A stretch of 44,574 nucleotides of DNA from a virus. Positions within the stretch are counted from its first letter, which is position 1, and every line of letters begins with the position of its first letter. A program made the position numbers and the translations under genes. The notes below the pieces were generated by a model. That model did no database searches and was not told where the DNA came from. It worked only from the letters and a program-made list of their open reading frames with translations. Location: IMG/VR virus record IMGVR_UViG_3300022602_000174, positions 1 through 44,574 of that record, one strand, 5' to 3'. Positions 20,001 through 44,574 of this stretch are shown here, piece by piece.

Positions 20001-20717
20001 ACCAATATTGCCTGTTACTGAAAAATACCAGTTAGCATACGGACCAGAGCCGCTTGTGCCACTTATACTGTCTACATTAACAGTAATGTTTAACCCACTT
20101 ATATTAGAAATAACACCTTCTAAATAATTTGTAGGAATAACAGGGTAAATTACACGGACACGCTGACCAACTACATAAGCATTTGCAACATTAACTGTCC
20201 AAGTTAAACTTCCTGTTTGCAATAAATTACTTGAAACGGAAGTTACATAATACCCTAAACCTGTAGCACCAGTAGCACCTGCACTACCTGCCGAACCAGC
20301 GGCACCAGTTGCACCTGTAGCACCTATAGGTCCCGTACTTCCTGTAGCACCAGTTGCACCTGTAGCACCTTGTGGGCCTGTTGCACCTGTAGCACCTTGA
20401 TATCCACTTGTACCACTCTGTCCTGTAGCACCAGTCGAACCATATTGTCCCGTAGCACCTGTTGCACCAGTCGATCCCGCAGGGCCTGTACTTCCTGTGG
20501 CACCAGTAGCACCTTGTGGACCAGTAGCACCAGTAGCACCTTGTGGACCAGTAGCACCACTAGTTGAAGGTATAAAACTTAAAACACCTGTACCATCTGT
20601 GGACATAACATATCCACTGGATCCAGCATTTTGTGGTAAGGTTAAAGTAACCGTACCTGTTGTAGGCGATTTAAGTGTTATTTGACCTTGTTGACTGGTA
20701 TCTAAATTGATTGACAT
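13737..20717 (-). CDS. Collagen-like tail fibre with C-terminal S74 chaperone
   Basis: 2,326 residues, a probable trimeric receptor-binding fibre. Residues 1-53 form a short beta N-terminus of the type that attaches fibres to the virion ([20 protein letters not shown]). Two Gly-X-Y collagen-like stretches follow (54-155 and 237-344), separated by a folded island of about 80 residues. The long middle is beta-rich, with four copies of an [19 protein letters not shown] motif common in phage fibres. The last 116 residues, starting SDRRKKKDI at Ser2211, are a peptidase S74 intramolecular chaperone. They include [17 protein letters not shown] and a terminal coiled coil, and in relatives this domain trimerises the fibre and cuts itself off. 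Downstream, the 138-residue gene is coupled by overlap. A late-promoter motif at 20739 precedes it; the ribosome site is weak. Confidence 0.9.
19686..20009 (-). repeat. Collagen-like Gly-X-Y repeat, second block
   Basis: Codes for residues 237-344 of the fibre: about 36 Gly-X-Y triplets dominated by GAT and GPQ. At DNA level it is a degenerate 9-base repeat of the GGTGCTACA type. Confidence 0.9.
20253..20558 (-). repeat. Collagen-like Gly-X-Y repeat, first block
   Basis: Codes for residues 54-155: about 34 Gly-X-Y triplets of the same GAT/GPQ/GST type as the second block. A non-collagen island of about 80 residues lies between the two blocks. Confidence 0.9.
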
Positions 20718-26590: not shown

Positions 26591-29530
26591 TTACACACCT
26601 GTAAATTGTATCCAGTAAAAATTAGTTCCATCTTGAATCCATTGATACTCTACACCAATGCTTGGATCGATCCAAAAATCTCCTATGTTATTTGTAGCGG
26701 TTGTTGGAGGAGTTGTAGATACAGTAACTTTTATATTTGCTAATGGTTGTCCTTGAGCACTATAAACATTCCCGCCTACATGTAGATCTCCAGCAATACC
26801 TACACCACCACCTACAACAATTGCACCTGTATTAGTGCTTGTTGATGCCGTTATATTTGTAACGTCAAGAGCACCAGTAAAAGTTAATGCTCCATTAACT
26901 TGTAATCCGCTTTCAATGATTGTTAAAGGACCTGATGGATTAATTCTTAGATTGCCAGAAACAGTACCAATAGAATTTGATGCAAATAGCAACGATCCTA
27001 CCTGAATACTTGTTGGTTGTAAAATAGCGGCGTTAATACCATCGCTAATTGTTAAACTTGAAACAGGGCCTAATTTAAAGTTAGCAGTACCGAAGTCAAC
27101 ATTACCAGTACGCTGATTAATACGGAATTGATCCCCAACACGGAAATCTCCTAACTGATCTACAGTTTGATAATAAATCTGTGCGCCATTTAATTTTGTA
27201 ATTTCTTGTGATTGAATTGCAAGATTAGGATCGTCAGTTAAATCTTTACCGCTTCCTACATAACTCATATTAAAGGCAATTAATTTTAAATCAACACCTG
27301 CACCATCACCATAAACACCATAATTACCAAACACAGCCGCACTACCAATACAGCGTAGTTCGGCACCAAACTGATGATAGTCTGCTAAAATAATTTGTTT
27401 TGCTGATGCTATCTGAGGTGCGGTATATGTTCCTGTTGTTGAATATACAATCTGTGTTCCTAATCCGTCATCAGTAAACACTATGCTTCCGTCGGATCCA
27501 TCGCAATGTAATAACAATACTGTCGATAAATCACTTGAAAATGCTTGAGATGGAGGAGTAAATGGTGCAGTATATCGATATGTTGTGCTTACACGAACTT
27601 CATCCATATAACCACTCATACTTAAACTTGCTGTTTGACTTTCTCCGCCAATTGTTAGAGGATCTCCGTTAGTAACATTATATGTAGACGAAGTAACAAC
27701 TTCTAAATTTCCATCTAAGAAAATTCTAATATTATTATTAGGGTCCCTGCTCATTGCAACATGATGCCATGTGCCAGTAGATACAGCATTTGTGCCTGTA
27801 AAAATTGTAAGTCCGTGTTGACCTGTTAATTTATTGTTGGCATCAATGTATAAACCTAATGTGGTTAACGGTATTGAACCTTTATTGAATAGTTGTTGTA
27901 CTCTATTGTAGTCTGTTAGATAAATTTCTGATTCAAGAGTGTAAGCACCTACATCAAACTGTAAATCAGTACTGCTGATAACTTCTAATAAGTCGCCAGG
28001 AACTTGAAATAGTGCAGAACCTGTTCCAAATTTTCTTTCATATGAACTAACGTGAGTTGTACCATAAACGTTTACAACTTTGCCAGTACGATTGTTTGCT
28101 TGCTCAAACCCTGCGGCATTGCCTCTAATATAGATGTAACTTCCTGATACTTCATCAATTAATCCACTTGCCGCAACTGTACCAGTTGAACTAATATAAT
28201 AAAGAGTCTGTCCTGCGGCAAATGTACCTGTAGTATTTGCTAAAGAAATTCTTACACGACCTTGACCACCCCAACCTTGTTGACCGGCATAGGCATAGAT
28301 TGCTTTGTCAGCAAAATATGTAAATCCATTTAATAATTCACATCGTGTGCCATTGGTTAAAACAATAGCGTTGGCATTTGGAGTAATAAATGTTGCTTCG
28401 TTGAATAAAATTGCTGGCTCAATACTTGCTGTAGTGATATATTGTCCATCAAAGAAGCCACCACCACCTGCGTCTGCACTGTTATAACCGTATCTGTCGC
28501 TATCCGTTATAACACTACCTCTTGTTAAAACGGTAAAACGTTCAACATAAGGAGAGCGTAAGTAAGAAGTCATACCTGGATCAAATGCTAACGCATAACC
28601 AGGTTTGTAAAAATTACCTACAGTAAAATCACTAATTGTTGTTCCGCCATTTAATAAAAATGCAGTTTGTGTGTTAGTAGCAGTAGTAGGTTGAACAAAT
28701 ACTTCACGTAATCCTGCTCCTCGAATACTAACACCTTCTCCTATAATTAATGGAAAGTCTTCAGTATAAGTTCCTGGCATTAGATAAATTGTATCGCCCG
28801 ATACGGCAACACTCAACGCATGTTTAAGTGTTTTAAACGGATCTATTTCTCTATGACCTGTATAAGTATCATCGCCAATTTGGGGATCTACATACCATGT
28901 ATTTTTATTGTAATGTAAAAGATCAATACCTTGTACTGTAGCAGTATTTAGAACAACTAAATTTTGAAAAGTTGCAGTATTTAAAACTCCAACATTTTCT
29001 GCATATAAATTTGCCCAGTAACTTGTTGTAGATCCTATGCTAAATCTATTATTATATTTTGGAATTAAATCTGAATTAATTTCAGATTCAATTGTTAAAG
29101 AATCTGTGCTGGTGTTATTACCTAATACAATATTACCATTGGCTGTAATATTACCTTGAGCAGTAATACTACCTTGTACATTTAAATCTCCACCAATTCC
29201 CACTCCACCTGTAACAACAAGAGCGCCATTAGTTGATGTTGTTGAGCTTGTTATATTATCAACATATATATTTCCACCTACACCAATACCGCCGCGAACT
29301 CGCAAAGCACCTGTTGTGCTACTTGTACTTAATGTAAGTGGGAGAATATCTACAGCATCAAATGCTGTAATTGTACCAGTAAATGCTGATCGACCACCGA
29401 TATTAACATCTGCTGTAATACCGACACCGCCATAGACAACTGCGGCACCCGAAATTGTACTGGTTGATGTCGCAGTTAGATGGTTAAGAACCGTTAGGCC
29501 GTTCTTAACGACGAAGTTACTTTGTGCCAT
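26591..29530 (-). CDS. Fibre-type protein with beta-helix and LamG-like domains
   Basis: 979 residues. The N-terminus FVVKNGLTV is shared with the 1,095-residue neighbour. Three GALxVxGGVGIGG repeats follow (28-120) and a fourth lies near the C-terminus. Residues 210-480 look like a right-handed beta-helix of the pectin-lyase type: WYVDPQIGDD, PFKTLKHALSVAVSGDTIYL, PGTY and IRGAGLREVFVQP. A laminin-G-like domain (about 500-675) is inserted: YTLESEIYLTD, TGTWHHVAMSRD, IRIFLDGNLE and YMDEVRVS. The helix-like sequence then resumes (FGAELRCIG, YGVYGDGAGVDLK) and runs into DQLGDFRVGDQFRINQRTG. The end has a Trp module (GDFWIDPSIGVEYQW). Such domains bind or cleave glycans, so host-surface binding is likely. 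A late-promoter motif at 29575 overlaps the upstream gene's stop. Confidence 0.8.
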   Translation of the reverse strand: MAQSNFVVKNGLTVLNHLTATSTSTISGAAVVYGGVGITADVNIGGRSAFTGTITAFDAVDILPLTLSTSSTTGALRVRGGIGVGGNIYVDNITSSTTSTNGALVVTGGVGIGGDLNVQGSITAQGNITANGNIVLGNNTSTDSLTIESEINSDLIPKYNNRFSIGSTTSYWANLYAENVGVLNTATFQNLVVLNTATVQGIDLLHYNKNTWYVDPQIGDDTYTGHREIDPFKTLKHALSVAVSGDTIYLMPGTYTEDFPLIIGEGVSIRGAGLREVFVQPTTATNTQTAFLLNGGTTISDFTVGNFYKPGYALAFDPGMTSYLRSPYVERFTVLTRGSVITDSDRYGYNSADAGGGGFFDGQYITTASIEPAILFNEATFITPNANAIVLTNGTRCELLNGFTYFADKAIYAYAGQQGWGGQGRVRISLANTTGTFAAGQTLYYISSTGTVAASGLIDEVSGSYIYIRGNAAGFEQANNRTGKVVNVYGTTHVSSYERKFGTGSALFQVPGDLLEVISSTDLQFDVGAYTLESEIYLTDYNRVQQLFNKGSIPLTTLGLYIDANNKLTGQHGLTIFTGTNAVSTGTWHHVAMSRDPNNNIRIFLDGNLEVVTSSTYNVTNGDPLTIGGESQTASLSMSGYMDEVRVSTTYRYTAPFTPPSQAFSSDLSTVLLLHCDGSDGSIVFTDDGLGTQIVYSTTGTYTAPQIASAKQIILADYHQFGAELRCIGSAAVFGNYGVYGDGAGVDLKLIAFNMSYVGSGKDLTDDPNLAIQSQEITKLNGAQIYYQTVDQLGDFRVGDQFRINQRTGNVDFGTANFKLGPVSSLTISDGINAAILQPTSIQVGSLLFASNSIGTVSGNLRINPSGPLTIIESGLQVNGALTFTGALDVTNITASTSTNTGAIVVGGGVGIAGDLHVGGNVYSAQGQPLANIKVTVSTTPPTTATNNIGDFWIDPSIGVEYQWIQDGTNFYWIQFTGV

Positions 29531-29574: not shown

Positions 29575-29582
29575 TATTTATG
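29575..29582 (-). promoter_or_regulatory. Candidate late promoter CATAAATA
   Basis: CATAAATA on the minus strand overlaps the stop codon (TAA, 29578-29580) of the 1,095-residue gene. It gives a leader of about 38 nt containing GAGGAG before the 979-residue gene. Confidence 0.45.
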
Positions 29583-32500
29583 ACGATGTAATTGCTGTTC
29601 GTAACACTTGGACACTCATGTTTGTTGGAACATAGTTAGGAGTGAATACTAGATTAATTAAACCACCATTGTAAACAGCATCAATATTTCCTAAATTGCC
29701 TGGTTGATTTGATATCAAACCGTATTCTGATATGTAAGCACCGTTAGTCTGTGCACTACCGTCATACGCAACCATAATTTCGGAAACTTGGAATAAATTA
29801 GGAACATAACCAGCATCAATAATCTGTACAAGATATTTTGCCGTTCTAAAAGCACCTGCGTTCCATGTATCTATTGTAATCTGACTATTTGAAGCAATAC
29901 CAACAGTACTTGTAGATGCAATTTGATTGTTTACAATCTGAACTGTAACACCTTTAACAGTAGCGCCTGAAGTAATACTTCCGCCTGCGCCAATTCCGCC
30001 ACCGACTACAAGAGCGCCTGAATTTGTTGTACCGTTGTTAACATAACTTGAACCAATTTTAACCTGACCATTATTAACTAACAATGCCCATTGATTTGCC
30101 GCTTGAGCACCACCAACAATAGTCGGTGCATCTTCAATGAATAGTGTAGCAATATCTTTCCAAGTTGGATTCAAACTACCAACTAGATTTGGTTTGTTAA
30201 TGCTGTGAATTACCGCTGTACCTGCGTTTAACCCAACTGAAGTTAAATCTGTATATGTACTAGTTGATAATTGTAAGCCAGGGCCATTTACGGTCCATTT
30301 GTTAGCCTGTATATCACCGACTCTATTGACACTTCCGCCTACATATAGTCCGCCACCAATACCAACTCCACCCCAGACTTCTAATGATCCAGATCCAGTC
30401 GTACTATTAACGGTAGTTGTTGATACAATATGTGTATTTCCACCAATCCATGTATCTAACCCAATTCCAACACCGCCGGCAACTGTTAAGTCACCAAATG
30501 CTGTACCAGTAGACTGTGAACCACTGTTAACACTTGCGGTGTTAATATTAATTCTTGTGGCATTAATTGTTTGAGCAACACCTAGTCCGCCTGCAATTGT
30601 AACAGCACCAAGACTTCTTGACGAACTGTCTTGAGTACCGTAGACAGTTAAATTATTGTCAACTGATAAATCAGTACCAATTCTTGCGCTTTGGCCTAAG
30701 TCTAATATACCAGCAATGAATACATCTTGAGCAATTCCAACACCGCCGTCGACTGTAAATGCACCGCCGGAGCTTGTAAATGCGTTTGTGGTGTTTACAA
30801 ATGTTACTTGGCCGCCAACATTTAAGTTACCGCCAATACCAGCACCACCTTGTACAACTAAAGCACCACTATAAGTATTGCTTGATTGCTGATTACTCCA
30901 AACATAAGCAGTTCCTGTGGTTACAAAAGTACCACCCATGTTTAAGTTACCGCCTAATCCTAAACCTCCGTCAATAACAACGGCACCTGTTGTTGTACTA
31001 GTTGACTGTGTTAAGTTAGTAAAGTGGAAACTTAATGTAAAGACTCCGCCAATTGTTCCGTTGACTGTTCCTGTTGTAAGAACTTGAGAACCATTAACAT
31101 AGGCGGCCTGTTCTGCGTAAATGTATTTTGCGCCTAACCCACCATTTGGAATATAAACAGTATTGCCTGTTGTAGTTGTTAGATTGTAATTATAACCTAA
31201 GAATGTAGTATCTGTACTAAAATAACTTGTTGCACCAACACTAATACCACCGTTGACTTGTAGTGCACCTGTGCCTAATGCACTAGAAGGTGTACTATCG
31301 TGTAGTATTAAAGAACCTGCTTCTAATGTTGACCAAGATCCAGTAGTAAACAGTTTGGTTACATCTACTTGTCCTAGTGCATCTGGTAATATACCATTCT
31401 TTAAAAAGAAATGTTGGCTAGTGTGATCAATTCCAACAATTGCTCTATAATCTGTTAAAGTATTAACAGAATTTTGATAGTGAATTAATAGGCCCTTGTC
31501 ATAAACATCGGGTACCTGCAACATTGATCCATCAATACCGCCACCGATTTCGATAACCGGATCAACAATATAAGTATTTGTACTATCAACAACAACTTGC
31601 TTACCAGTACCTAATAGTAATAAGTCACCACGAATAACAGTATTGCCGTTAACTGTAAGTTCTTTTCCAATATTAACACCGCCAGCAACAATCAAAGCAT
31701 TTGATGCTGTAGTACCAGTTGAACTGATTGTGGATCCAATAATTAAGTTTTGGCCAATGCCGACACCACCTGTAACAACCAAAGGTGCTACACTAGAAGA
31801 TTGAGCAACTGAGGGGTCTGCTACAACAATGTCTTGAGCCCATAACGTATTACCAATACCAACGCCGCCGTTAACAATTAATGCCCCAGACTGTGTGTTT
31901 GAAGCATCTACGTTTGCATTGAATAAAACTTGTCCGCCAAAATAACCAGTTCCGCTAACACCTAAGCCACCACCGTTGGTAACTTGTAGACTGTTTCCGA
32001 TATAATTTGTTAGATTGAATGTTCCAGATGTAAAGAATCCGTTTTGAGCATATAAATCTTGACCGACACCTAAACCACCTTGTAAGGTTAGGGCACCAGT
32101 ACTTGTACTAGTAGCATTAACAGTACCTAAGAAGGTACCAGTTGTCATACCTACAATACGACCACCGACATAAATGTTGCCTGTAATACCAGCACCACCG
32201 CCATTTCTTAATTGTAAGGCACCAGTACTTGTACTAATTGCTTGTGTAGCAGTTAATAAAATTAACTCATTAGGAAATTGTTGTTGTCCATTATTAGCAG
32301 TAGCACGAGTTAAGATTTCACTGTTATTAATGTTATAGGTGCCGTAAAAATTACCGCCGCCATTACCGTAAATTCCATTGTTAAACCCAATACCGCCCTG
32401 AACTTGAAGAGCTTCGTTGGCAAAAGTTGTTGTACTACCTCTTGTTTCACCGATGTAAACTGTACCTGATGTAATGTAGATAGAATATGGATTTATAATC

Positions 32501-32865
32501 GAAACGTTAGTACTTGCTGTACTTGGAGGACCATAAACATAAATGCTTGCCGCATTTGTAATAGTAACGTTTGTATTTGTTGCGTCAATCTGTGGTTGAC
32601 CAAAATAGTTAACAATTTCCCAAGGTACAATGCCAGTGCTTGATACATCGGTGTAGATATTGTCACTTAAACGTAGAGCGGCACCGCCTGAAAATACAGA
32701 ATCACTAATTGGTCCAGTACGGCTAATCCATCCGCCAATGTTTGCATTACCACCAATCCCTGCTCCGCCGGCTACTTGTAAAGCACCTGAATATGTATTA
32801 GACGAGACTGCTGTTCCTTCAACTGTCAAGCCTTGTTTAACTACGAAATCTTTATTCAGTGCCAT
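29578..32865 (-). CDS. Repetitive fibre-type protein (16 Gly-rich repeats)
   Basis: 1,095 residues. Starts FVVKQGLTV like the 979-residue gene, then carries about 16 copies of the GALxVxGGVGIGG repeat, often followed by NLYVGG-like strands. A single copy of the VDPVIELGG-type domain (TYIVDPVIEIGGGIDGS, then YDKGLLIHYQ) lies near residues 410-520. The last 105 residues have a domain shared with the end of the 600-residue gene (RTAKYLVQI, EIMVAYD, EYGLI, closing strands with VLRTAIT). It is flanked on both sides by genes with the same repeat, so these are tandem duplicates or recombining partners. AAGGAA lies 6 nt before the ATG. Likely a long beta fibre; the target is unknown. Confidence 0.78.
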   Translation of the reverse strand: MALNKDFVVKQGLTVEGTAVSSNTYSGALQVAGGAGIGGNANIGGWISRTGPISDSVFSGGAALRLSDNIYTDVSSTGIVPWEIVNYFGQPQIDATNTNVTITNAASIYVYGPPSTASTNVSIINPYSIYITSGTVYIGETRGSTTTFANEALQVQGGIGFNNGIYGNGGGNFYGTYNINNSEILTRATANNGQQQFPNELILLTATQAISTSTGALQLRNGGGAGITGNIYVGGRIVGMTTGTFLGTVNATSTSTGALTLQGGLGVGQDLYAQNGFFTSGTFNLTNYIGNSLQVTNGGGLGVSGTGYFGGQVLFNANVDASNTQSGALIVNGGVGIGNTLWAQDIVVADPSVAQSSSVAPLVVTGGVGIGQNLIIGSTISSTGTTASNALIVAGGVNIGKELTVNGNTVIRGDLLLLGTGKQVVVDSTNTYIVDPVIEIGGGIDGSMLQVPDVYDKGLLIHYQNSVNTLTDYRAIVGIDHTSQHFFLKNGILPDALGQVDVTKLFTTGSWSTLEAGSLILHDSTPSSALGTGALQVNGGISVGATSYFSTDTTFLGYNYNLTTTTGNTVYIPNGGLGAKYIYAEQAAYVNGSQVLTTGTVNGTIGGVFTLSFHFTNLTQSTSTTTGAVVIDGGLGLGGNLNMGGTFVTTGTAYVWSNQQSSNTYSGALVVQGGAGIGGNLNVGGQVTFVNTTNAFTSSGGAFTVDGGVGIAQDVFIAGILDLGQSARIGTDLSVDNNLTVYGTQDSSSRSLGAVTIAGGLGVAQTINATRININTASVNSGSQSTGTAFGDLTVAGGVGIGLDTWIGGNTHIVSTTTVNSTTGSGSLEVWGGVGIGGGLYVGGSVNRVGDIQANKWTVNGPGLQLSTSTYTDLTSVGLNAGTAVIHSINKPNLVGSLNPTWKDIATLFIEDAPTIVGGAQAANQWALLVNNGQVKIGSSYVNNGTTNSGALVVGGGIGAGGSITSGATVKGVTVQIVNNQIASTSTVGIASNSQITIDTWNAGAFRTAKYLVQIIDAGYVPNLFQVSEIMVAYDGSAQTNGAYISEYGLISNQPGNLGNIDAVYNGGLINLVFTPNYVPTNMSVQVLRTAITSS

Positions 32866-32890
32866 TTCTTATTCCTTGTAATACATATGA

Positions 32891-34693
32891 TTAAACTGTT
32901 ATACTTGTTCTAGCGACTTTCATCGTTTTGTTGCTAGGAGTGTACGCCGAGAATAATAACCTTATTAACCCATTGCCTCCAACATTATAGTCCACATTAA
33001 ACACACCCTTTTCACCAGCAGTTGCGATAATACCGTACTCTGATTTGTAAACATTACCTACGTTGTCATACAATACCACGATTTCCCTCACTTCGAAACT
33101 TGCTGTTGGTCCTGTCCCGTCAGTTATCTGAACGAGACTCTTTGTAGTCCTATAAGTCAGTGCTGGCCAACTGTCAACCACTGTAGTACTTGTGTTATTT
33201 ATGCTGGTGGCACGTGTAAACAGTTGAGCATCTTTAAATTGGATACTACCATTAACTTGGAGTTTATCTATACCGTTATCTGTTTGTTGTCCAACAAGCA
33301 AATTACCAGTAGTTTTTACAATTGCTAATCGATAAGTTGAATTTTTGTCGTCATACAGCGTTAGACTACCTTCTCGCAGACTAGTACCGCCTTGTCCAGC
33401 GGCATTATTTCCGCCTACATTCCATGTATAACTCTGTCCGTTTGTAGCGGTATTGCGCATACGGAAATAAACACTGTCAACAACGTTAGGACTTTCAAGA
33501 GTTAAACTCTTTCCTATATAAACATCACCGCCTATACCAACACCACCTAACACTTTTAAAGCACCGGTATAGGTATTAAATGCACCTTCTATATTAGCAA
33601 CATAAAATGGGTCTGTAATCTGCCCACCGTTCCAAATAGGATTGTTTAATGGAACACCGTCAGAATAAAATGCTCGAGCATATACGGCACCATTAACACC
33701 AACACCCCCTGCTACCAGCATAGCCGCACTAAATGTTGATGTAGCGCTTGTAGCATTTGTTACTTGTGTAACACCAGCAATTGTTGTAGTTGTAGAAAAT
33801 ACAGCAAATCCGCCGGCAGTAATATTTCCTCCTGCATTGATGTCTCCACCAATACCAACACCGCCTGCTATTATTAATGCCCCTGTTGTTGTGCTTGTAC
33901 TGGTATCAGTACCAGTAATAGACATTTTCTTAACTTGGAATGTGCCCGATGAATATAAGTCTGTAAAATAACCTACATTAGGAGTAATTGTTCCTATAGG
34001 ACTATCATCTATTAACTTCTTTGTTACTGATTGGTTAGGTACATTATCACCTACAATCTGATACCAATTAACAGGATCAACATTTAAAGTGTTTTGGGCT
34101 TCAAAGTCGGTATAAAAATAACGACCAGCATAGGCAGTTCCTGAACTAACATTAACGATAGCACCTGCCATTTTATCTGCTGTATTATCATCAGTAGTTC
34201 TCGACCATGTGCCGTTATAACCTACACCTAAATATGTAATATAGTAGATACCGTTTTCAGCAGGGTTATCCTGAGCACGAACTAGAATACGATCTAGATA
34301 TGATGCTTGATAATCACTAACAATTGTAGGTGCTCCACCTACCAGAACAATATTAGCAGTGGTAGCAGCCTTAACTGGTCCTTTAAACGCAGTATTTGCC
34401 TGTAGATCAGGAATGTATGTTGGCCCTATAATATAGTTGCCACCAGTTCCGTTTGCTGTAATAACATTGTTCCCATCAGGAATAATAGTTTCCATATAGG
34501 AACTAGTATTACTAAATGTAAAATTAAATTTGCCAAGTGTAGTAGCGTAACTTGTTTGGCTATTAAATGTTATAATTGTATAGCCAGTAGAAGTAGTAGG
34601 GCTGTTACCTAATGCCGCCTGTGCTTGTTTTAATGTAATAAACCCTGATTTTGAACTAGGATTTTTAACTGATCCGCTTAATAAACCAGCCAT
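32891..34693 (-). CDS. Fibre-type protein with three Gly-rich repeats
   Basis: 600 residues from the ATG at 34693, which has GGAGGAG 6 nt upstream. A TTG 15 nt earlier is in frame but falls in that ribosome site. The N-terminus (MAGLLSGSVKNPSSKSGFIT) differs from its neighbours. Residues about 110-195 form a module with RILVRAQDNPAENGIYYI and WSRTTDDNTADKMAGAIVNV, a pattern I know from other phage fibre proteins. Three GALxVxGGVGIGG repeats lie between about 285 and 440. The last 105 residues match the C-terminal domain of the 1,095-residue protein (YRTTKSLVQITDG, EIVVLYD, SEYGII). Its ATG is one base after the stop of the giant upstream gene, so the two are probably co-translated. Confidence 0.78.
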   Translation of the reverse strand: MAGLLSGSVKNPSSKSGFITLKQAQAALGNSPTTSTGYTIITFNSQTSYATTLGKFNFTFSNTSSYMETIIPDGNNVITANGTGGNYIIGPTYIPDLQANTAFKGPVKAATTANIVLVGGAPTIVSDYQASYLDRILVRAQDNPAENGIYYITYLGVGYNGTWSRTTDDNTADKMAGAIVNVSSGTAYAGRYFYTDFEAQNTLNVDPVNWYQIVGDNVPNQSVTKKLIDDSPIGTITPNVGYFTDLYSSGTFQVKKMSITGTDTSTSTTTGALIIAGGVGIGGDINAGGNITAGGFAVFSTTTTIAGVTQVTNATSATSTFSAAMLVAGGVGVNGAVYARAFYSDGVPLNNPIWNGGQITDPFYVANIEGAFNTYTGALKVLGGVGIGGDVYIGKSLTLESPNVVDSVYFRMRNTATNGQSYTWNVGGNNAAGQGGTSLREGSLTLYDDKNSTYRLAIVKTTGNLLVGQQTDNGIDKLQVNGSIQFKDAQLFTRATSINNTSTTVVDSWPALTYRTTKSLVQITDGTGPTASFEVREIVVLYDNVGNVYKSEYGIIATAGEKGVFNVDYNVGGNGLIRLLFSAYTPSNKTMKVARTSITV

Positions 34694-34694
34694 C

Positions 34695-37600
34695 TTATGC
34701 TCCTCCAATCACTAATACGAACGGAGTCATTTCAGCATACAACGATTTTTGGAATGTACGACCCGATAGTACACCAGTTGCCTGACTAATTACCAGTGTT
34801 GGTCCAATACGGAAGTCACCGTTTTGGTCAGTTGATGTAAAGAATACCTTACCGTTATTCAATTGAATTGTTTCCTTAGATTGCACTGGGTCAGCCTTAC
34901 CAACCTGCGGTAAAGCACCATATTGTGTACCTGCCCCCACATACTCAAACAAATAGCCTGAAGCGGAAATGTAACTTTGTTGGTAGAAGTTAACAGATGC
35001 CCCGTCAATAAACAAGGTTGGATCTGTAACGTTCTGCTCAAGAGTAACAATATGATACTGTCCTTTTCTATAATAATATCCCTCACCTGTATTTACAGAT
35101 TTATAATTTCCTCCATTTACGGTGTCAAATATAACCGCATCTACAATAGATCCCATGTCTCGATAACACTTGATCTTGTCGTAGTTAGCCTGTCCTGTAT
35201 AAGTCCAATCAATGTAAGCAGTGAGTTCTGCTTTGATAAACTCTCTGTTGGCTTCTAAGATATTGTAAGTGTTAATTACATTTGTATTTGTACTTTCTGT
35301 GTAAACAATAGGTGTTCCGTCAGGAGCAACACTAGGACCATTAACAATGATGTTGGTAATTGTGTCAATGCTTGTTTGTATTGTAGCAACTTCAGCAGAT
35401 GTACCTACAGGCATATCAGTTACTTGTTTAACTTTAATTTGATAAGTTGTAGTAACAGGTTGTCCTGTAATAATGTTAGGAACAATCTCTCTTAGATAAT
35501 TATAAGCCGCAGTAGTTTGAGGTATCTCATCAGGAATAGCAGTTACATCGCCAAATCCATAGTAATAAACTCCTGCTTGTACACTTTGACGATTACCTGT
35601 ATGTGTCAAATCAAATCCAACACAATCGATAATAAATCCAACATCACGCAAGCAATATGTGTGATCAAAGTTCCATCCTGGATTATCATTAGTAATTCTT
35701 GCTACTACTTCATTCTTAATAAAGTCTTTGTTAGTCTCAAGAATACTATAAGCATTGAGTGTATCTGCATCAGTAGTTGTAGCACCGTTAGGTACAATTA
35801 TATCGGTTACTCCTGCTGTACCATTTTCAATAATATTAAGTACAACATCCATATTGCTGGCCAGTGTCGCAGCCGCTGTTGCAATTCCTGGGTACGGAGT
35901 TGTAACTTGTGTTCCTGTAGAATAGCGAGGACCACTTGTATCAGATAACAATATCTGTTGTGCTAAAGACTTAACATAAGAAATAGCCGCAGTAGTTGTT
36001 GTTAACTCACCTGGAATAATAGCCGATGTATCAGATGCCTGATTCCAATATTGCAATCCAGCAAATGTAGACTGACTATTACCTCCAAACAATAAATCTT
36101 GTGCTACGGCATCAACAATAAGTCCTGTATCTCGTTGGCATTTTGTTTGATTGTAACTAAACCCTGGATATACACTACTAATATAGCCAGTCATTTCAGC
36201 CTCAAAATAACTTCTGTTAAGTTCTAGTAGTTGTACAGCATTAATTACATTAGTTAAAGTAGATGCTGTAGTTCCAATTGAAGTTTTAGCAGGAGCCGCA
36301 TTTGGTCCGTATGTAATAATGTTTGTTATTATATCAAGATTAGATTGAACAATAGTTGCCTCTACACTTGTACCTACACTACCAGTGTTAAACACTTGCG
36401 GATGTGCTATTTGATAACCTGAATTTACGGCAATACCTTCAATAACATTAGGAATAATACTTCTTAAGTATGTGTAAGCCGCTAGTGTTTGAGTAGACTC
36501 TCCCGGAATAGCAGTAGATGTGCTGTTATATCCATAATAGTAAGCACCGCTTTGTACTGCTTGTCTATTTCCGCCATACAATATGTCAACGCAGACGCTA
36601 TCAACCATATAACCTACATCTCGAGCACATGTATCTCTATTGTAAGTAAATGTAGAAGTTGTTTGATTAATATACCCAATAACTTCTGCTTGAATAAATG
36701 TACGGTTAGCATGGATCAAATTTGCTGCCTTAACTACATTTGGATTTGTACTTGTTGTTAAACTTATTGGTGTTTTATCAGCAACAATATCAGGTCCAAA
36801 ATTAATAATTTCTGTAGCCAAATCAATCTTAGATTGTGCAAGAGTGACTTCAGAAATAGTTCCTGTAGAAGCACTAATAGTTTGAGTATATGTATTTTGA
36901 TAAGTCACTGGCATTACCTGACCTTGAACAATGTATGGTAACATTGTCTTGATATAGTCATATGCTAATGTTGTCTTAACTTGTTCGCCGGGAATAGCAC
37001 TTGCAGTATCAGAGTAACCGTAATAATATACACCTGATTGAACTGCTTGTCTATTTCCTCCGTATAACAAATCAACTGATACGCTATCTAACATGTAACC
37101 AACGTCTCGATAACATGTGTCTTGGCTATAAACATATCCTGTACTTGAAGTTATGTGATTTACATAAGCAACTGCTTCAGTTTGAATATATTGTTTATTT
37201 GCCTGTATCATTCCGTAAGCATTTTTAGTCGAAACATTTGTGCTTGATGTTAGTCCATTAGGAACAATAATATCAGTAACTCCTACGGTGCCGCTGTTTA
37301 ATATGTTTGTAATGATATTAAAATCAGCCGCTATTGCTGAAGCATCCGACGGTGATCCAACTGGCAGTGCAGTAACTTGACTTACAGTATTTTGATATCG
37401 TGTTCCTGTTGTAATACCTTGAATAACTTTTTGCACCAATGAACTTACATATTTGATTGCATTAGTTGTTGTAGTAATTTCACTACCGATAGCACCTGTA
37501 TAATCTCCTTGGTTCCAATATTGCAAACCTGCAAATGTCATTTGACTTGAAGTATTAAACAACATATCTTGAACAATAGCATCAACAATCAGTCCTGTAT

Positions 37601-40600
37601 CACGAGAACATTTGTCTTGATCATATGTATAACCCGGATTGGCTGCATAATCGACATACGCAACCGCCTCTTGCTGTAGATATGCTCTATTAGCCTGTAA
37701 TATGTTAAAGGCATAAATTTTACCTGAATCAGTACTAGCCGTCATACTGTTAGGCTCAATTAAATCAGTTATACCATTAGTACCGGTTGCTAAGATATCA
37801 AGAATAACATCAAAGTCAGCAGCCACTGCGGCTACAGTTGCTGTAATGCCTGTTGGTAAGAATAATGATTGTGTAAGTGTATTAGTTGGGCTAACGGTAA
37901 TTGGATTACTTTGTACAACATCTTGTATAACTTCTTTTAGATATCTAAATGCGTTGGTAGTTGTTGTAATTTCGTCACCAATCTTACCAGTATACCCATC
38001 TTGGTTCCAGTATTGTAATCCACTAAATGCGCTCTGAGTTGTACCGCCGTGTAAGATATCCATAGCAATGCTATCAACAATTAATCCGGTATCACGTGCA
38101 CACTTAGTTTTGTCGTACTTGAATTTAGTATTAAATGTATTATCAACATAAGCAGTTACTTCAGCAGTAATAAATGCTCTATTAGCATTTAACAATGTCG
38201 CCGCATATTGAGTAGAAGTAGTGTTACTCATTGACAATGGTATTGGAGTTCCATCTTGTGCTACACTCGGACCAACATCAATAATATTAGTAATCATGTC
38301 AACATGTTTTGTTACATAGTCAACATCGTATTGTTGTCCAACAAGATAAACATAATTTACATAGTTAACAACTTCTTCTTGTATAAAGTTTCTGTTGGCT
38401 TCTAAAATCTTGGTAGCATTTAAAACTGTTGCTGTGCTAGTAGCAGTTAAACCAATTGACGTTGCTGTATTGGCTATAGTTGGTCCGTTATTAATAATAT
38501 TAACAATTAAATCAACCATACTCTGTACCTGATTGGCTTCAAATACTGTTGCCGCAGTTAATGTTGTAACTTGAGTAGCAGTATTATTTGGAGAAGGAGT
38601 AACTGGTTGGTTCTGAACAATTTGAGGAACAATAGTTCTCAAGTGTTCATAAGCCGCAATTGTCTGAGCACTTTGATAAGGAATAGCAGTTGATGTATCA
38701 TATGAATAATAGTAGACACCACTTTGTATTGCCTGTCTATTACCGCCGTATAATATATCAAAACTTACACTGTCGACCATAAATCCTACATCACGGTAGC
38801 ACTTGTTAGTATCAAAAGTAAATCCACCTGTTGCAATACTACTGACATAACTTAGTGTTTGTTGTTGTAAGTATGTTTTATTGGCTTGTAAAATATTGTA
38901 TGCGTGTGTAGCATCTGTTGAAAGGGCAGTTAACCCATTAGGAACAATTAAATCTGTTACTCCAGAAGTTCCACTGTTTAATATGTTAAGAATATATTGG
39001 AAATCATTCTTAACAGCATATAGTTGAGTATATGTTGCAGTTGTTAAGTTAGTAACTTGCGATGCAGTAGTCACAAAACGTTGTACTGTACCTGTACTGT
39101 TAACAACAATCTGCTGAGCAAGGTTGCTTAGATATTGGATAGCCGCAGTAGTTGTAGTAATTTCTCCTGGGATAGCGCCAACATAACCTGATTGATTCCA
39201 ATATTGTATACCAGCAAAGTTACTTTGTGTATAACCGTTAACAGGGAATTTTAAATCAATTGCAAAACTATCAACTAGTATGCCTGTATCTCTAAAACAC
39301 TTATCGGAGTTATATGTGTAACTTAAATTTGTTACTTGTGGCACTAATGTTTGTTGAGGAGAAGTTACAGTTTGACCTAATATGATAGGTTGAACAATTT
39401 GTTTGATATAGTTATAAGCCGCAGTTGTCTGTGGAATTTCGTTAGGAATTACAGTAGCGGTTGTGTAATAGTAATAATACACACCACTTTGTATTGCCTG
39501 ACGGTTACCACCATACAATGTATCAAAACTAATACTATCTAACATAAATCCAACATCGCGGAAGCATTTATTTTGATCATAAGTGAATCCTGTATACTTA
39601 CTATCAATGTAAGCAATAACTTCATTTTGAATAAATGTTCTGTTTGCTAACAACAAATTAAATGCGTTAGTGACATTTGGATTAGAATTAGGCGTTAACC
39701 CAATTGGTGTTGGAGGACTTGCAACTACAGGACCATTATTGATAATGTTTGTAATTGTAGAAACATATCTGTTAGCCGATGCAACTTCGTTTATAGATGC
39801 AGGCAATAGATATGTAACCTGTGTAGCCGTATTGCCTGGACTCTTTTGAACAGTGTTGCCTAACAATATTGTAGAAACAACTTGTGATAAATGATTGTAT
39901 GCATCATTCACTTGAGGTAGTTCGTACGTAATGACAGTTGAAGTGTTTATATAACTGTAGTAGTAAACACCACTTTGTACAGCCTGTCTATTTCCTCCGT
40001 GCACCAAATCAAAACTAACAGAATCAATCATGTAACCTAAATCACGTGCGCATGTATCTCTGTTATACACAAATGTTGAACTTGAAATATGATTAATATA
40101 GGCAAGAGTCTCTTCAATCATGTATTCTCTATTTGCCTGTAGAATAGCATAAGCATTATTTGTGCTTGTGGTATTTGTTAATTGGCCATTAGGAATAATA
40201 GTATCAGTGATGCCAGCAGTACCATTTTGTAAAATATTAATAATAACACCAAAATCAGCACCAACAGCCGATGCATCTAATGTAGTTGCAGGTGTAAGGC
40301 TGACATTTTGAGTTGTAGTATTTTGATAACGTGTGCCTGTATTATTAACAACAACTTGTTGAGCCAACGAACTTAGATAAATTACCGCAGAAGTAGTTGT
40401 GTTTAATTCTCCAGGAATAATTCCATTAGTTGAAGTTGATTGATTCCAATATTGTATGCCGGCAAATGTTGATTGACTATTTCCTGTGCTTGGATACATC
40501 ATGTCAAATGCAATTGCGTCTACAATCAATCCAGTATCTCTAAAACAGTTATCTTGATTATAAGAGAAGTTGGAAGTAGAATTTACATAAGCAACAATTT

Positions 40601-43600
40601 CTCTCTGTAAAAATTCTCTGTTATCTTGTATAGCATCATAGGCCGCTATAATATCAGCATTTGTACTAGACGTTAATGAGTTAGGAATAATAGCATCAGT
40701 AACACCTGCAATACCATTTTGTAAAATATCGATGATAACTTGAAAATCAGCCTTAATAGAATTTACAGTAGCAGTAGATACAGTGTATGTACTAGTAATT
40801 TGGAATGGTTGAGCATTGTATTGAGTATTAACATACGCAACAGTTTCTGCCGCAATAAAATCTCTGTTAGCATGTACAATTGCCGCCGCATGTAACATGC
40901 TAGCAGTTGTAGTTATTGTCATTCCAATTGGTGATTTAACTGTAGACGTTGTTTGCCCATTAGTAATAATATTAGTAATGGTTGTGATAGAATGTTGTAA
41001 CTTAGTAGCGTCAGCGATAGTACCCGGTGTTAAATTTGTAACTTGTAAAACATCTTGTTGATAGGTACCAGTTGTTACACCTGTAACAATCCATGGTAAC
41101 AAATTACTAATGTGTGCGTAAGCACCTAATGTTTGATCACGCTCACCAGGAATTACTGTATTAGTTGTTGTAAAGTTATAATAATAAACACCACTTTGCA
41201 CGGCCTGTTTATTACCGCCATATAATACATCAAATGCAATGCTATCAACTACAAATCCAATGTCTCTTGAACAACTTGTAGTACTGTATGTAAATCCTGT
41301 ACCTGAACTAATAAAGTTAGTATAGGCAACACCTTCTGCCTGAATGTATGCTCTATTTGCTCTAATAATATTGTAAGCATTTACAGCATCTGTCGATGTG
41401 CTTGCTGTAATACCATTTGGTATAATAAGGTCAGTTACACCTGCTGTGCCACTTGTTAGTATGTTTAAAAATACATTAAAATCTGCGGCTACAGTAGCAG
41501 ATGTAGAAGCCGCAGGTAATGACACATTCTGTGTTGCAGAAGTTTGATAACGTGTACCTGTACTATTAATGACCAATTGCTGAACTAGACTGCTAACGTA
41601 TTTGAATGCGTTAGTAGTTGTAGTTTCTTCTCCAGGAATAATAGAACTTGTACTTGTACTTTGTGCCCAATATTGTAATCCAGCAAATGTTGACTGGCTT
41701 GATGTGCTGAATAATAAATCTTGTACAATAGAGTCGACAATCAACCCAGTATCGCGTAAGCATTTTGTAGAGTCGTAAGTGAATCCAGAAAAGTATCTTA
41801 TACCTGTTGTTACGTTTGTCAATACTTCACCTACTAGTTCTTGTAGATGAATAACTGCGTTAGTTGTTGTTGTTAATTCACTACCAATAGCACCAACATA
41901 ACCTTGTTGATTCCAGTACTGAATTCCAGCAAATGTTGATTGGCTTGATGTGTTGAATAATAAATCTTGCGCTAAAGCATCAACAATCAGTCCTGTATCG
42001 CGTGAGCATTTAACATCATCATAAACAAATTGACTTGGCCAAATGCTATCAACAAATCCAACAGTTTCTGCTTGAATAAAGTTTCTGTTTTTTTCTAACA
42101 AACGTCTAGCACTATTTTTTGCTTCTGATACATTGACATATTGAGAAGGACGAATAACGTCTGGACCAGTGCCTGACCCATTTTGAATAATGTCTGCAAT
42201 GATATTAAATTTTTCTGCAACAATATCTGATGCATCAGCACCATTTTGGAAAGTAGGATCAATGCTTTGAGTAACAGCCGTTTGATAAGTTGTTGTAATT
42301 TGTTGATTAGCAATAATTTGTAGTGCTATATCCCTAGCATGAAGTATGGCTTGGCTAGTTGTAGTAATTTCTCCTGTTGGAAGAACAACAGTGATATTGC
42401 TTACTGTTGAGCCTAACGTAGTGTCGACAACACTCGACAGAACGTTATAATAAGCATTACCGCAGAAATATAAGTTCAAATAATTGTTGTTATTTGGATC
42501 ACCCCCACCATTTAGAATAGGATTATCAAGAGTGATACTTCTATAGTTCACATCGGCAACTCGCGTTCCAGTTGATACATATAATTGTCCTGCTTCTGGA
42601 CCTTCATTTCCGTATATATCTTTAATATAAAGAGTGTGTCCAATAGCAACATCAGTTATATCGATGTTATCAATTGTGTAACTACCTGTACTAACTGTTC
42701 CAGTGTTAGAACTAGCAACTAAGTATCCTGGATAGCCTTCTGAGTTAACATAAGGAACACGGTCACCATTATAGTCTAAGTAAGTATCGGGAGGAACAAC
42801 TTCCATAACTTGACCAATGTGCGGTCTGTTTATACTGTCAGGAATGAATACTTCCATCTGTTGAGAATTTGGCCAATATCCGATAGGATAGTATTCGCTG
42901 TTAGGTATGTTAGATGGGTATGGTGGATTCCAAACAATACCAGCAAAACTTAATTGTCCAATACCTTTGGCAACTAAACATTGGTCACCGAAGTTAGCAT
43001 TTGAGTTTGTAATAGAAGCAATACCGCCGTTCTCAACTAAGACCGCAGTAGAGCAGAACAATGTAAAGATAGACACTAACTGTGCATATCCATTGTTAAT
43101 AATATGAATTCCAATACCGCCTTGGCTCAACTGTGTAAACGCATCAAACACAAATGATTGAATAGGAGATTTTAATGATGGAGCATTTCCGTCAACTAAT
43201 GCACCCCCACCGCCACCTTTAGGATCTAGTCTACGGTCGGCATTTGTGCTTGTTGACCAGTAAGCAGGAATTTGATCATCTAAGAACGGATAAACACTGG
43301 TGCTACCGAAATATACAGTAGCATTATCACTAGCCGCAATGGTAGGATTATTTAGAGTAACAGCATAGCACCCTGTTGATATTTCAGTAACTGCCGTAAC
43401 TTGACTTGCTGTATTGATAAAATCAGGACTTAGACCGCTCGGTACAATTAGAGTATAGATATCATTTACTGTCGCAGGTGCTGCCGTTGGGCCACCGTCG
43501 ATAATTGTTGTAATTATTCCAAAATCAGTTGTAAGTCGAGTATCAACTACAGCCCCGTTTGGTTTTGTAGGATCTATAACTTGTGATACTGTAGATTGAT

Positions 43601-44574
43601 AGGTGCTTGTAATCGGTGTATTAGCAACGACTTTTGATGCTAGTGACGCGAGGTAATTAATAGCGCCGATAGTTTCAGTTGCTTCTCCAACAATTAAACT
43701 ATTTGTACCAGACCAATAACTTAGTCCTGCAATAATACTACGTTTATTGCCGCCAAAACGTACATCTCTTGATACCGCATCTATAATCAATCCTACATCT
43801 CTAAAACATAAGGGTTGATTATATACAAAATAATTGTTGCCAATGTAAGCAATAACTTCTGCTTGAATAAATGCTCTATTGGCTTCAAGTAGTGTTACGG
43901 CATTAACAATATAAGGATTGCCGCTTGGATTTAATGGTAACGGAGTTAGAGGTTGTGCAACATCAGGACCATTATTAATAATATTAGTAATGGTAGAAAG
44001 AATTGTTTGAGCCTGAACACCTTGTGATGTTTGTCCACCAACTAAATTGGTAATTTGTGTAACTATAGTTTGTTGAGGAGTAATTGTCTGTCCAGTGATA
44101 ATAGACGGAAGGATACTGCTGATATAATTGTAAGCCGCGGTTACTTGAGGAATTTCGTTAGGTACTACTGTGGCAGTTGTATATCCATAGTAGGCTACTC
44201 CACTCTGTATTGCTTGTCGATTACCGCCATATAGTAAGTCAATACTTACACTATCAATCATATATCCTAAATCTCTGTAACACTTTGCTTCGTCAAATTG
44301 GAAGAGAGGAGGATACTTGCTGTTAATATAAGCAATAACTTCAGATTGAATAAACGATCTGTTAGACTCCAATAGTTTAGCGGCTTGATATGAATATGTA
44401 TCAGTACTTGAAGTTAAACTAATGGGAGTATTATCAGCCGCAACACCTGGACCATTCTTTATAATGTTTGTGATTGTGTTAATATAAGAATAAATGTCTG
44501 CTGACTCTGTAAAAGTAGCGGTAAATGCAGAGAATACTTGTGTAACAGTATTTTGATAAGGAGTAACTGCTACG
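34695..44574 (-). CDS. Giant modular fibre-type protein, 5' end outside the window
   Basis: At least 3,292 residues; the frame is open to the right edge, so the true start lies beyond 44574. It contains about 17 copies of a module centred on C-x-R-D-x-G-x-x-x-D, each about 163 residues when complete. A typical unit reads ANRxFIQxEVIAYI, YDxxKCxRDxG, GGNRQAxQSGVYYY, then a linker with TQVT and ITNIINNGP. Between units 2 and 3 sits a predicted beta-helix region (about 42420-43300) with GGGGGALVDG, GIGIHIINNGYAQLVSI and TNSNANFGDQCLVAKG. The C-terminal 90 residues have STDQNGDFRIGPTLVISQ and SGRTFQKSLYAEMTPF, a terminus I associate with T4-like marine phage fibres. No enzyme motif is visible; a long adhesin or whisker-like fibre is inferred. 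Confidence 0.8.
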   Translation of the reverse strand, partial: VAVTPYQNTVTQVFSAFTATFTESADIYSYINTITNIIKNGPGVAADNTPISLTSSTDTYSYQAAKLLESNRSFIQSEVIAYINSKYPPLFQFDEAKCYRDLGYMIDSVSIDLLYGGNRQAIQSGVAYYGYTTATVVPNEIPQVTAAYNYISSILPSIITGQTITPQQTIVTQITNLVGGQTSQGVQAQTILSTITNIINNGPDVAQPLTPLPLNPSGNPYIVNAVTLLEANRAFIQAEVIAYIGNNYFVYNQPLCFRDVGLIIDAVSRDVRFGGNKRSIIAGLSYWSGTNSLIVGEATETIGAINYLASLASKVVANTPITSTYQSTVSQVIDPTKPNGAVVDTRLTTDFGIITTIIDGGPTAAPATVNDIYTLIVPSGLSPDFINTASQVTAVTEISTGCYAVTLNNPTIAASDNATVYFGSTSVYPFLDDQIPAYWSTSTNADRRLDPKGGGGGALVDGNAPSLKSPIQSFVFDAFTQLSQGGIGIHIINNGYAQLVSIFTLFCSTAVLVENGGIASITNSNANFGDQCLVAKGIGQLSFAGIVWNPPYPSNIPNSEYYPIGYWPNSQQMEVFIPDSINRPHIGQVMEVVPPDTYLDYNGDRVPYVNSEGYPGYLVASSNTGTVSTGSYTIDNIDITDVAIGHTLYIKDIYGNEGPEAGQLYVSTGTRVADVNYRSITLDNPILNGGGDPNNNNYLNLYFCGNAYYNVLSSVVDTTLGSTVSNITVVLPTGEITTTSQAILHARDIALQIIANQQITTTYQTAVTQSIDPTFQNGADASDIVAEKFNIIADIIQNGSGTGPDVIRPSQYVNVSEAKNSARRLLEKNRNFIQAETVGFVDSIWPSQFVYDDVKCSRDTGLIVDALAQDLLFNTSSQSTFAGIQYWNQQGYVGAIGSELTTTTNAVIHLQELVGEVLTNVTTGIRYFSGFTYDSTKCLRDTGLIVDSIVQDLLFSTSSQSTFAGLQYWAQSTSTSSIIPGEETTTTNAFKYVSSLVQQLVINSTGTRYQTSATQNVSLPAASTSATVAADFNVFLNILTSGTAGVTDLIIPNGITASTSTDAVNAYNIIRANRAYIQAEGVAYTNFISSGTGFTYSTTSCSRDIGFVVDSIAFDVLYGGNKQAVQSGVYYYNFTTTNTVIPGERDQTLGAYAHISNLLPWIVTGVTTGTYQQDVLQVTNLTPGTIADATKLQHSITTITNIITNGQTTSTVKSPIGMTITTTASMLHAAAIVHANRDFIAAETVAYVNTQYNAQPFQITSTYTVSTATVNSIKADFQVIIDILQNGIAGVTDAIIPNSLTSSTNADIIAAYDAIQDNREFLQREIVAYVNSTSNFSYNQDNCFRDTGLIVDAIAFDMMYPSTGNSQSTFAGIQYWNQSTSTNGIIPGELNTTTSAVIYLSSLAQQVVVNNTGTRYQNTTTQNVSLTPATTLDASAVGADFGVIINILQNGTAGITDTIIPNGQLTNTTSTNNAYAILQANREYMIEETLAYINHISSSTFVYNRDTCARDLGYMIDSVSFDLVHGGNRQAVQSGVYYYSYINTSTVITYELPQVNDAYNHLSQVVSTILLGNTVQKSPGNTATQVTYLLPASINEVASANRYVSTITNIINNGPVVASPPTPIGLTPNSNPNVTNAFNLLLANRTFIQNEVIAYIDSKYTGFTYDQNKCFRDVGFMLDSISFDTLYGGNRQAIQSGVYYYYYTTATVIPNEIPQTTAAYNYIKQIVQPIILGQTVTSPQQTLVPQVTNLSYTYNSDKCFRDTGILVDSFAIDLKFPVNGYTQSNFAGIQYWNQSGYVGAIPGEITTTTAAIQYLSNLAQQIVVNSTGTVQRFVTTASQVTNLTTATYTQLYAVKNDFQYILNILNSGTSGVTDLIVPNGLTALSTDATHAYNILQANKTYLQQQTLSYVSSIATGGFTFDTNKCYRDVGFMVDSVSFDILYGGNRQAIQSGVYYYSYDTSTAIPYQSAQTIAAYEHLRTIVPQIVQNQPVTPSPNNTATQVTTLTAATVFEANQVQSMVDLIVNIINNGPTIANTATSIGLTATSTATVLNATKILEANRNFIQEEVVNYVNYVYLVGQQYDVDYVTKHVDMITNIIDVGPSVAQDGTPIPLSMSNTTSTQYAATLLNANRAFITAEVTAYVDNTFNTKFKYDKTKCARDTGLIVDSIAMDILHGGTTQSAFSGLQYWNQDGYTGKIGDEITTTTNAFRYLKEVIQDVVQSNPITVSPTNTLTQSLFLPTGITATVAAVAADFDVILDILATGTNGITDLIEPNSMTASTDSGKIYAFNILQANRAYLQQEAVAYVDYAANPGYTYDQDKCSRDTGLIVDAIVQDMLFNTSSQMTFAGLQYWNQGDYTGAIGSEITTTTNAIKYVSSLVQKVIQGITTGTRYQNTVSQVTALPVGSPSDASAIAADFNIITNILNSGTVGVTDIIVPNGLTSSTNVSTKNAYGMIQANKQYIQTEAVAYVNHITSSTGYVYSQDTCYRDVGYMLDSVSVDLLYGGNRQAVQSGVYYYGYSDTASAIPGEQVKTTLAYDYIKTMLPYIVQGQVMPVTYQNTYTQTISASTGTISEVTLAQSKIDLATEIINFGPDIVADKTPISLTTSTNPNVVKAANLIHANRTFIQAEVIGYINQTTSTFTYNRDTCARDVGYMVDSVCVDILYGGNRQAVQSGAYYYGYNSTSTAIPGESTQTLAAYTYLRSIIPNVIEGIAVNSGYQIAHPQVFNTGSVGTSVEATIVQSNLDIITNIITYGPNAAPAKTSIGTTASTLTNVINAVQLLELNRSYFEAEMTGYISSVYPGFSYNQTKCQRDTGLIVDAVAQDLLFGGNSQSTFAGLQYWNQASDTSAIIPGELTTTTAAISYVKSLAQQILLSDTSGPRYSTGTQVTTPYPGIATAAATLASNMDVVLNIIENGTAGVTDIIVPNGATTTDADTLNAYSILETNKDFIKNEVVARITNDNPGWNFDHTYCLRDVGFIIDCVGFDLTHTGNRQSVQAGVYYYGFGDVTAIPDEIPQTTAAYNYLREIVPNIITGQPVTTTYQIKVKQVTDMPVGTSAEVATIQTSIDTITNIIVNGPSVAPDGTPIVYTESTNTNVINTYNILEANREFIKAELTAYIDWTYTGQANYDKIKCYRDMGSIVDAVIFDTVNGGNYKSVNTGEGYYYRKGQYHIVTLEQNVTDPTLFIDGASVNFYQQSYISASGYLFEYVGAGTQYGALPQVGKADPVQSKETIQLNNGKVFFTSTDQNGDFRIGPTLVISQATGVLSGRTFQKSLYAEMTPFVLVIGGA
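35140..44574 (-). repeat. Array of about 17 modules, ~489-nt period, two subtypes
   Basis: The C-x-R-D-x-G landmark recurs at about 44275, 43800, 42000, 41755, 41270, 40540, 40050, 39560, 39290, 38795, 38095, 37605, 37110, 36620, 36135, 35650 and 35160. Most gaps are 477-502 nt. Exceptions are close to half (245, 266) or one and a half (698, 730) periods, plus one 1.8-kb gap holding the beta-helix. The partial sequence at the window edge is the second half of another unit. Confidence 0.85.

Follow-up and report, generated by a model that had tools for sequence, protein, structure and literature searches.

The giant tail-fibre-like protein encoded at one end of this virus record carries a repeat array that most probably grew by recursive insertion (a reading to which we assign a probability of roughly 0.78), its half-units and its W- and Y-type units pairing as nested brackets, in a manner resembling a stem-loop made of protein. 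As far as sequence can tell, the nesting is shown by halves that match in type, by complementary breakpoints, by equal numbers of opened and closed halves, and by bracket partners that covary. Whole W-Y blocks of two units would enter either the A2-B1 loop inside an existing unit, or the junction at which a W unit meets its Y partner. Such inserts would be whole and balanced in W and Y, and the interrupted parts would stay paired, an A half with a B half of the same type and a W unit with a Y unit.

The window, i.e., the whole stretch analysed, is a virus record of 44,574 bases. The fibre ORF lies on its minus strand in a cluster of T4-like myovirus structural genes, which code for a tail sheath, a sheath stabiliser resembling gp15, two tail-tube-like proteins, and baseplate wedge components. 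It is matched by the profiles of PHROG 4527 (E=9e-167, 18 stretches across the repeat region), PHROG 5342 (E=4e-128, 15 stretches across the same region), and PHROG 701 (E=2e-73), so that both profile matches and gene location place it in the T4-like cyanophage tail-fibre / virion structural family (PHROG 4527/5342). This family is already known, only under the names 'tail fiber' or 'virion structural protein'. The fibre is nearest to cyanophage tail-fibre families, and the sheath protein of the window to those of jumbo T4-like phages of Agrobacterium and Pseudomonas. A place in the virion and host contact as a fibre are putative, and the repeat array would serve the tail as an extended fibre or as the arm of a spike. 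Searches of PDB by sequence and fold with the fibre repeats returned no relative and no structure at E <= 0.001, the significant BFVD matches were other cyanophage or uncultured phage fibres only, and known Pfam domains gave sub-cutoff matches only (Phage_antitermQ, 18.7 bits vs a cut-off of 26). The features of the ORF are as follows, A and B being the first and second halves of a unit, w and y their types, and units being named by the Cys of their CxRD motif:

34695..44573 (-): fibre ORF, 3,292 aa, 5' end cut by the end of the window; T4-like tail-fibre / virion structural protein family
43450..44573 (-): N-terminal repeat part, aa 1-375, with an orphan By at the cut end, a Y unit (Cys 98), and a divergent unit of a third class (Cys 256)
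42340..43448 (-): domain of about 370 aa without A/B repeats, aa 376-745, which breaks the array
41794..42038 (-): lone Aw half, aa 846-927, read as the first part of a split W unit, the outer W of the first WWYY block
40816..41792 (-): inserted W-Y block 1, aa 928-1253, units Cys 938 (W) and Cys 1101 (Y)
40579..40814 (-): orphan Bw half, aa 1254-1332, read as the second part of the split W unit from type match and length complementarity
39598..40577 (-): inner W-Y pair, aa 1333-1659, units Cys 1343 (W) and Cys 1508 (Y), code Y-H
39331..39596 (-): lone Ay half, aa 1660-1748, read as the first part of a split Y unit; bracket partner W at Cys 856, code F-Y
38353..39329 (-): inserted W-Y block 2, aa 1749-2074, units Cys 1759 (W) and Cys 1925 (Y)
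38134..38351 (-): orphan By half, aa 2075-2147, read as the second part of the split Y unit
36172..38132 (-): WWYY block, aa 2148-2801, units Cys 2158 (W), 2322 (W), 2487 (Y), and 2649 (Y), read as W(WY)Y; inner W-Y modelled with AF2
35200..36170 (-): last W-Y pair, aa 2802-3125, units Cys 2812 (W) and Cys 2974 (Y)
34990..35198 (-): terminal A half, aa 3126-3195, Cys 3136
34699..34988 (-): conserved single-copy C-terminal domain, aa 3196-3292, PHROG 3442

After the interrupting domain, the array can thus be read as W856(W1343 Y1508)Y1670, each host with an inserted W-Y, followed by W2158(W2322 Y2487)Y2649, by W2812-Y2974, and by the terminal A half. The split units are Aw(856) [W938 Y1101] Bw(1254) and Ay(1670) [W1759 Y1925] By(2078). 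The interrupting domain has no Pfam match; many relatives carry a counterpart, seen as a gap of 280-530 aa in the array, and both this domain and the N-terminal part of relatives give the impression of a beta-helix. In four other loci (L104, L100, L316, and L317), the whole A/B array is flanked on either side by a part of one beta-rich domain, perhaps a beta-helix, that has G-x-D-x-NDG and SITNS-x-x-NFG motifs and that no Pfam model recognises; there, the array itself may be a large insertion in that domain.

Other large proteins are encoded nearby on the minus strand. Directly 3' of the fibre (29578-34708), two proteins of 1,095 and 605 aa carry many short copies of 'GALxVxGGxGIGxxxxxGG' and have only weak PHROG matches. 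A 979-aa baseplate-wedge-like protein (26591-29530) contains a laminin-G-like lectin domain, and a 2,326-aa tail-fibre-like protein (13737-20717) combines collagen-like repeats with a C-terminal Peptidase_S74 intramolecular chaperone. The two tail-tube-like genes are adjacent (1554-3275 and 3334-3987), one being enlarged to 573 aa.

The unit structure given in the preliminary description holds. The ORF has exactly 17 CxRD motifs, and each unit comprises about 163 residues, divided into A and B halves that are either Y or W in type. Because the window fibre is short by about 770 N-terminal residues relative to its nearest full-length relative (L053, 4,062 aa), these 17 copies are a lower bound. 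Cys-to-Cys spacing is about 162-165 aa, with the exceptions already noted in that description: 82 and 89 aa, where a B half is missing, and 242 and 233 aa, where an extra B half without CxRD is present. The second unit is of a divergent third class and is followed by the non-repeat domain. The pairing of Y with Y and W with W, first remarked in the window, is perfect in every complete unit from Cys 938 on and extends well beyond it. Profiles for Ay, Aw, By, and Bw were built from the window and run on 51 fibres found via the C-terminal domain, and later on about 300 loci. Separate trees of A and B halves, the check that had been proposed, share one deep split in 353/355 non-redundant units from relatives (Fisher p ~1e-98, kinship among units being ignored). 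After confidence filtering, contiguous A-B pairs number 593 YY, 484 WW, and 2 YW. This linkage is specific to the A-B unit, since the border between a B half and the next A half allows all four combinations, each of them common (163 WY, 153 YY, 152 YW, and 56 WW). Within types, A and B distances are also correlated (Mantel r 0.67 for Y and 0.57 for W), and units are therefore inherited as wholes. Apparent mismatches obtained with the first profiles (18 WY and 3 YW) mostly disappeared with profiles rebuilt from relatives, and correspond to the third divergent class or to distant arrays. The two halves are not copies of each other, hhalign giving edge overlap only.

A contact between the A and B halves had also been proposed, and structure prediction and coevolution both agree with it. 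The AF2 model of a W+Y pair of the window (aa 2282-2679, 114 aligned segments) reaches a pLDDT of 94.0 and a pTM of 0.85, with four long helices per unit and one strand per unit just after the QYW or YYY motif, two in all; strands do not stand alone, and those of W and Y are therefore likely paired with each other. Coevolution within the unit indicates antiparallel A2-B1 and A2-B2 helix pairs and, towards the next unit, a B2-A1' contact. A-A' couplings from W to the following unit (33-201, 39-209, and 43-215) are not among the top of the Y set, and W-Y is thus probably a two-unit module.

One level of brackets appears to join W units to Y units. W runs are almost always of 1 or 2 units, followed by Y, with a run length of at least 3 seen once vs 9.7 expected. 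W was read as opening and Y as closing a bracket, couplings were trained on 162 isolated W-Y pairs, and 30 WWYY blocks kept out of training served as the test. In these blocks, the outer partners W1-Y2 coevolve (mean z 0.80-1.03, t 4.2-5.8), as do the inner partners W2-Y1 (t 5.2-7.7), while the controls from the same fibres, W1-Y1 and W2-Y2, are at or below zero. The strongest coupled positions are, in both units, the residue that follows DLL towards the end of helix A1, and they obey a simple code: F in the W unit goes with Y in the Y unit, and Y in the W unit with H in the Y unit (F-Y or Y-H). Non-adjacent bracket pairs follow this code in 25/43 cases, vs a permuted mean of 13.1 and a maximum of 22 in 5,000 shuffles, and vs 29% when the W unit is matched with other Y units further right along its fibre. 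The remaining 18/43 distant pairs do not carry the code, W2158-Y2649 of the window (H-Y) being one of them; in the window, the code is kept in 5/7 bracket pairs, the adjacent W2812-Y2974 (F-H) also departing from it. Joint states of the WWYY blocks are FYHY (9) and YFYH (4), both compatible with nesting only, FFYY (3), YYHH (2), and others; the states compatible with crossing only (FYYH and YFHY) were found in none of these blocks, vs 13 for the nested-only states. On trees, FY/YH double switches number at least 15 in adjacent and at least 4 in non-adjacent pairs, and the code is therefore not a single inherited state. As related fibres have common ancestors, independent events are in general fewer than the counts of pairs and blocks.

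It is unlikely that these signals come from a plain linear solenoid, in which W-Y blocks were duplicated in register and W1-Y2 covariation merely reflects subtypes inherited at equivalent positions. Common descent of the C-terminal WWYY and similar blocks, contacts of B2 with the A1 of the next unit, and the gain or loss of two-unit blocks between relatives would all fit such a history, but the absence of signal in the W1-Y1 and W2-Y2 controls of the same fibres and the independent double switches in non-adjacent pairs (at least four) would not, and split units would be left unexplained. Indeed, the arrays differ from a linear tandem-repeat solenoid, where units are contiguous and contact only their neighbours, in both their split units and their W1-Y2 coevolution. 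Rather improbable, too, is that bracket partners touch between the chains of a multimer, such as an antiparallel dimer, instead of within one chain. Many phage fibres are multimers, coevolution is blind to the difference between intra- and inter-chain contacts, and the WWYY result would look alike in both cases; however, an antiparallel dimer has a single symmetry centre, in contrast to these arrays, where every W-Y block has its own and branching of the form W(WY)(WY)Y is seen, and a single W+Y chain is already predicted at a pLDDT of 94.

The other level of brackets lies within units. When fibres are written as strings of halves, most lone A halves are answered further along, beyond whole units, by an orphan B of matching type. 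The two kinds of spacing anomaly, a half missing and a half too many, evidently stem from a single unit whose two parts have been separated by an inserted block of W and Y, Aw(WY)Bw or Ay(WY)By. All 48/48 confidently matched lone-A/orphan-B pairs agree in type (33 YY and 15 WW; 19 non-redundant), their inserts comprise 4, 8, or 12 halves, and the W count equals the Y count in every insert read among relatives. Nesting reaches different depths: AwBw AyBy at depth 0 (L141-144), AwBw Ay(AwBw AyBy)By at depth 1 (L100, L128-131, L135-137, and L139), depth 2 in two contigs from different samples (L132 and L133), and depth 3 in L138, which reads AwBw Ay AwBw Ay AwBw Ay AwBw Ay By By By By, four opening Ay being matched by four closing By. 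The repeat copies of L138 are only 44-74% identical to one another, and its nesting is hence not an artefact of assembly or slippage. The reverse block order is inserted in L104, Aw(AyBy AwBw)Bw. Split points vary (75+87, 82+82, 89+71, and 92+79 aa), yet host lengths less the 27-aa linker sum to 131-151 aa, vs a normal median of 136 (5-95%: 114-143). Host parts that sum to about one unit despite differing split points argue against independent deletions, and together with the 48/48 type match they correspond to recursive insertion proper, i.e., a module of the same family within a loop of a host whose parts make one complete unit. Lone A halves are left unmatched in L031, L094, the L046/48/49/224 group, and L107 (at a contig end), and orphan B halves in L025, L052, L081, and L092; some further anomalies pair only with a degenerate half.

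Couplings within units support, short of proof, the view that split halves still pack together. Learned on contiguous units, they give the true partner a mean z of 1.25-1.27 in held-out units; on split pairs, scored against other B or other A halves, the mean z is 0.71 and 1.18 for Y, and 0.07 and 1.20 for W. Nested pairing scores higher than swapped pairing in 13/15 Y and 4/4 W cases with the top 100 couplings, and in 9/15 Y and 4/4 W cases with the top 20; several L100-type cases are near zero. A second AF2 model, built on the Y-type and not the W-type split unit of the window with its insert, reaches a pLDDT of 87.9 and a pTM of 0.70, the lone A and orphan B being its less certain parts. 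The only strands predicted are those of the inserted W and Y units; the absence of any from the lone A would fit a bracket partner, W at Cys 856, outside the modelled construct.

The preliminary description had instead proposed a combinatorial array, reshuffled at half-unit borders by the independent gain and loss of half-units. Such recombination in a linear array is very improbable: spacing anomalies do sit at half-unit borders, copy number does differ among relatives, and a few lone or orphan halves are partnerless, but the 48 confident pairs are of one type and enclose whole units, their breakpoints are complementary, L138 opens and closes exactly as many Ay as By, and the nearest relatives are collinear. 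Rather than being gained or lost on its own, each matched lone A shares its type with an orphan B further along and belongs to one unit with it, whole W-Y blocks being nested between the two. The variation in copy number and order expected among relatives was found (about 2 to 20 CxRD), except that the two closest relatives, L002 and L003, keep the order of the window, anomalies included, at 70-96% identity. Nor is there a sign of recent reshuffling in the window, whose units include no recent duplicates (best true nucleotide match 77%, overlapping windows aside). The array is thus not a rapidly shuffling one, with near-identical repeats and an order that differs between close relatives.

Further arrangements of the family are seen among relatives. 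Several of them (L002/L029 and L003/L027, on one contig each, and L057) have another, shorter fibre gene with repeats of this family next to the large one; in L029 and L027, it encodes about 2,200 aa with the N-terminus MAIGRITGPLL... In L077, L081, L084, L088, and L094, two ORFs share the repeats of the family, one with an array of Y units only and the other with an array of WWYY or WWYW type; in L081, the two ORFs are in one frame with only a stop codon between them. A distant branch (L101, L112, L115, L122, and L147) has very long arrays of Y-like A halves, with B halves that are poorly recognised.

With recursive insertion, the W-Y block would be a closed two-unit hairpin whose ends are able to lie together. 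Each insertion would extend or branch the rod while older partners keep their contacts, which would account for the matched types and covarying residues. The chain would run out through one set of repeats and back through their partners, so as to form an alpha-helical rod, shaped like a hairpin and in some cases branched, that is carried on a tail-fibre backbone, and nesting would lengthen or branch the fibre with earlier folds unbroken.

Recursive insertion within one domain family has a precedent in the SI3 of the cyanobacterial RNA polymerase beta' subunit, where hybrid-motif (SBHM/HABAS) domains are inserted in an A1-B1-C-B2-A2 order, with six levels reported (PMC13114784). As in SI3, members of one family are inserted into one another over several levels, but SI3 is an unrelated protein and fold, with its domains in one conserved enzyme, whereas the phage arrays have two-unit alpha blocks, two type-matched kinds of brackets, many fibres of differing depth, and covarying partners. 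An SBHM fold can be set aside for the phage repeats, which are almost all-alpha in the AF2 models and do not belong to that domain family. Alpha-solenoids and other structured tandem repeat proteins share the repeated helical units and neighbour contacts; unlike them, the phage arrays have split hosts and distant units that pair. The likeness to RNA secondary structure, with its nested pairing and compensatory changes at partner positions, is one of analogy only, the partners here being protein repeats and not nucleotides. Among isolates, Synechococcus phages S-H9-1 (QPB08097.1) and DSL-LC03 (WJZ47903.1) encode the same CxRD repeat family (by profile and tblastn) in a giant ORF among tail and structural genes; in these fibres, the module profiles give few Y-like halves, no W type, and no nesting. 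The identity of the window fibre to isolates is below 60%, mostly about 24-34% over the repeats. A search of an open-access library brought up no account of phage fibres with bracket-like repeat arrays, nor of repeat partners that covary without being adjacent, and this phage version of recursive same-family insertion, with its covarying bracket pairs, appears to be new.

Repeat proteins are usually thought to grow by tandem duplication; here, dozens of uncultured phages would instead have used recursive self-insertion, to depths of 0 to 3, and covariation would let repeat partners be read like base pairs. We see an even chance that these fibres are, in a general sense, stem-loop trees of protein, with a context-free bracket grammar, a readable two-residue code, and a length and branching that evolve by W-Y hairpins inserted anywhere, existing pairs being undisturbed. 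Such fibres would offer a natural series for the study of how discontinuous domains fold, a simple design rule for extendable or branched rods, and a route to understanding the giant 'virion structural protein' fibres of aquatic T4-like phages.
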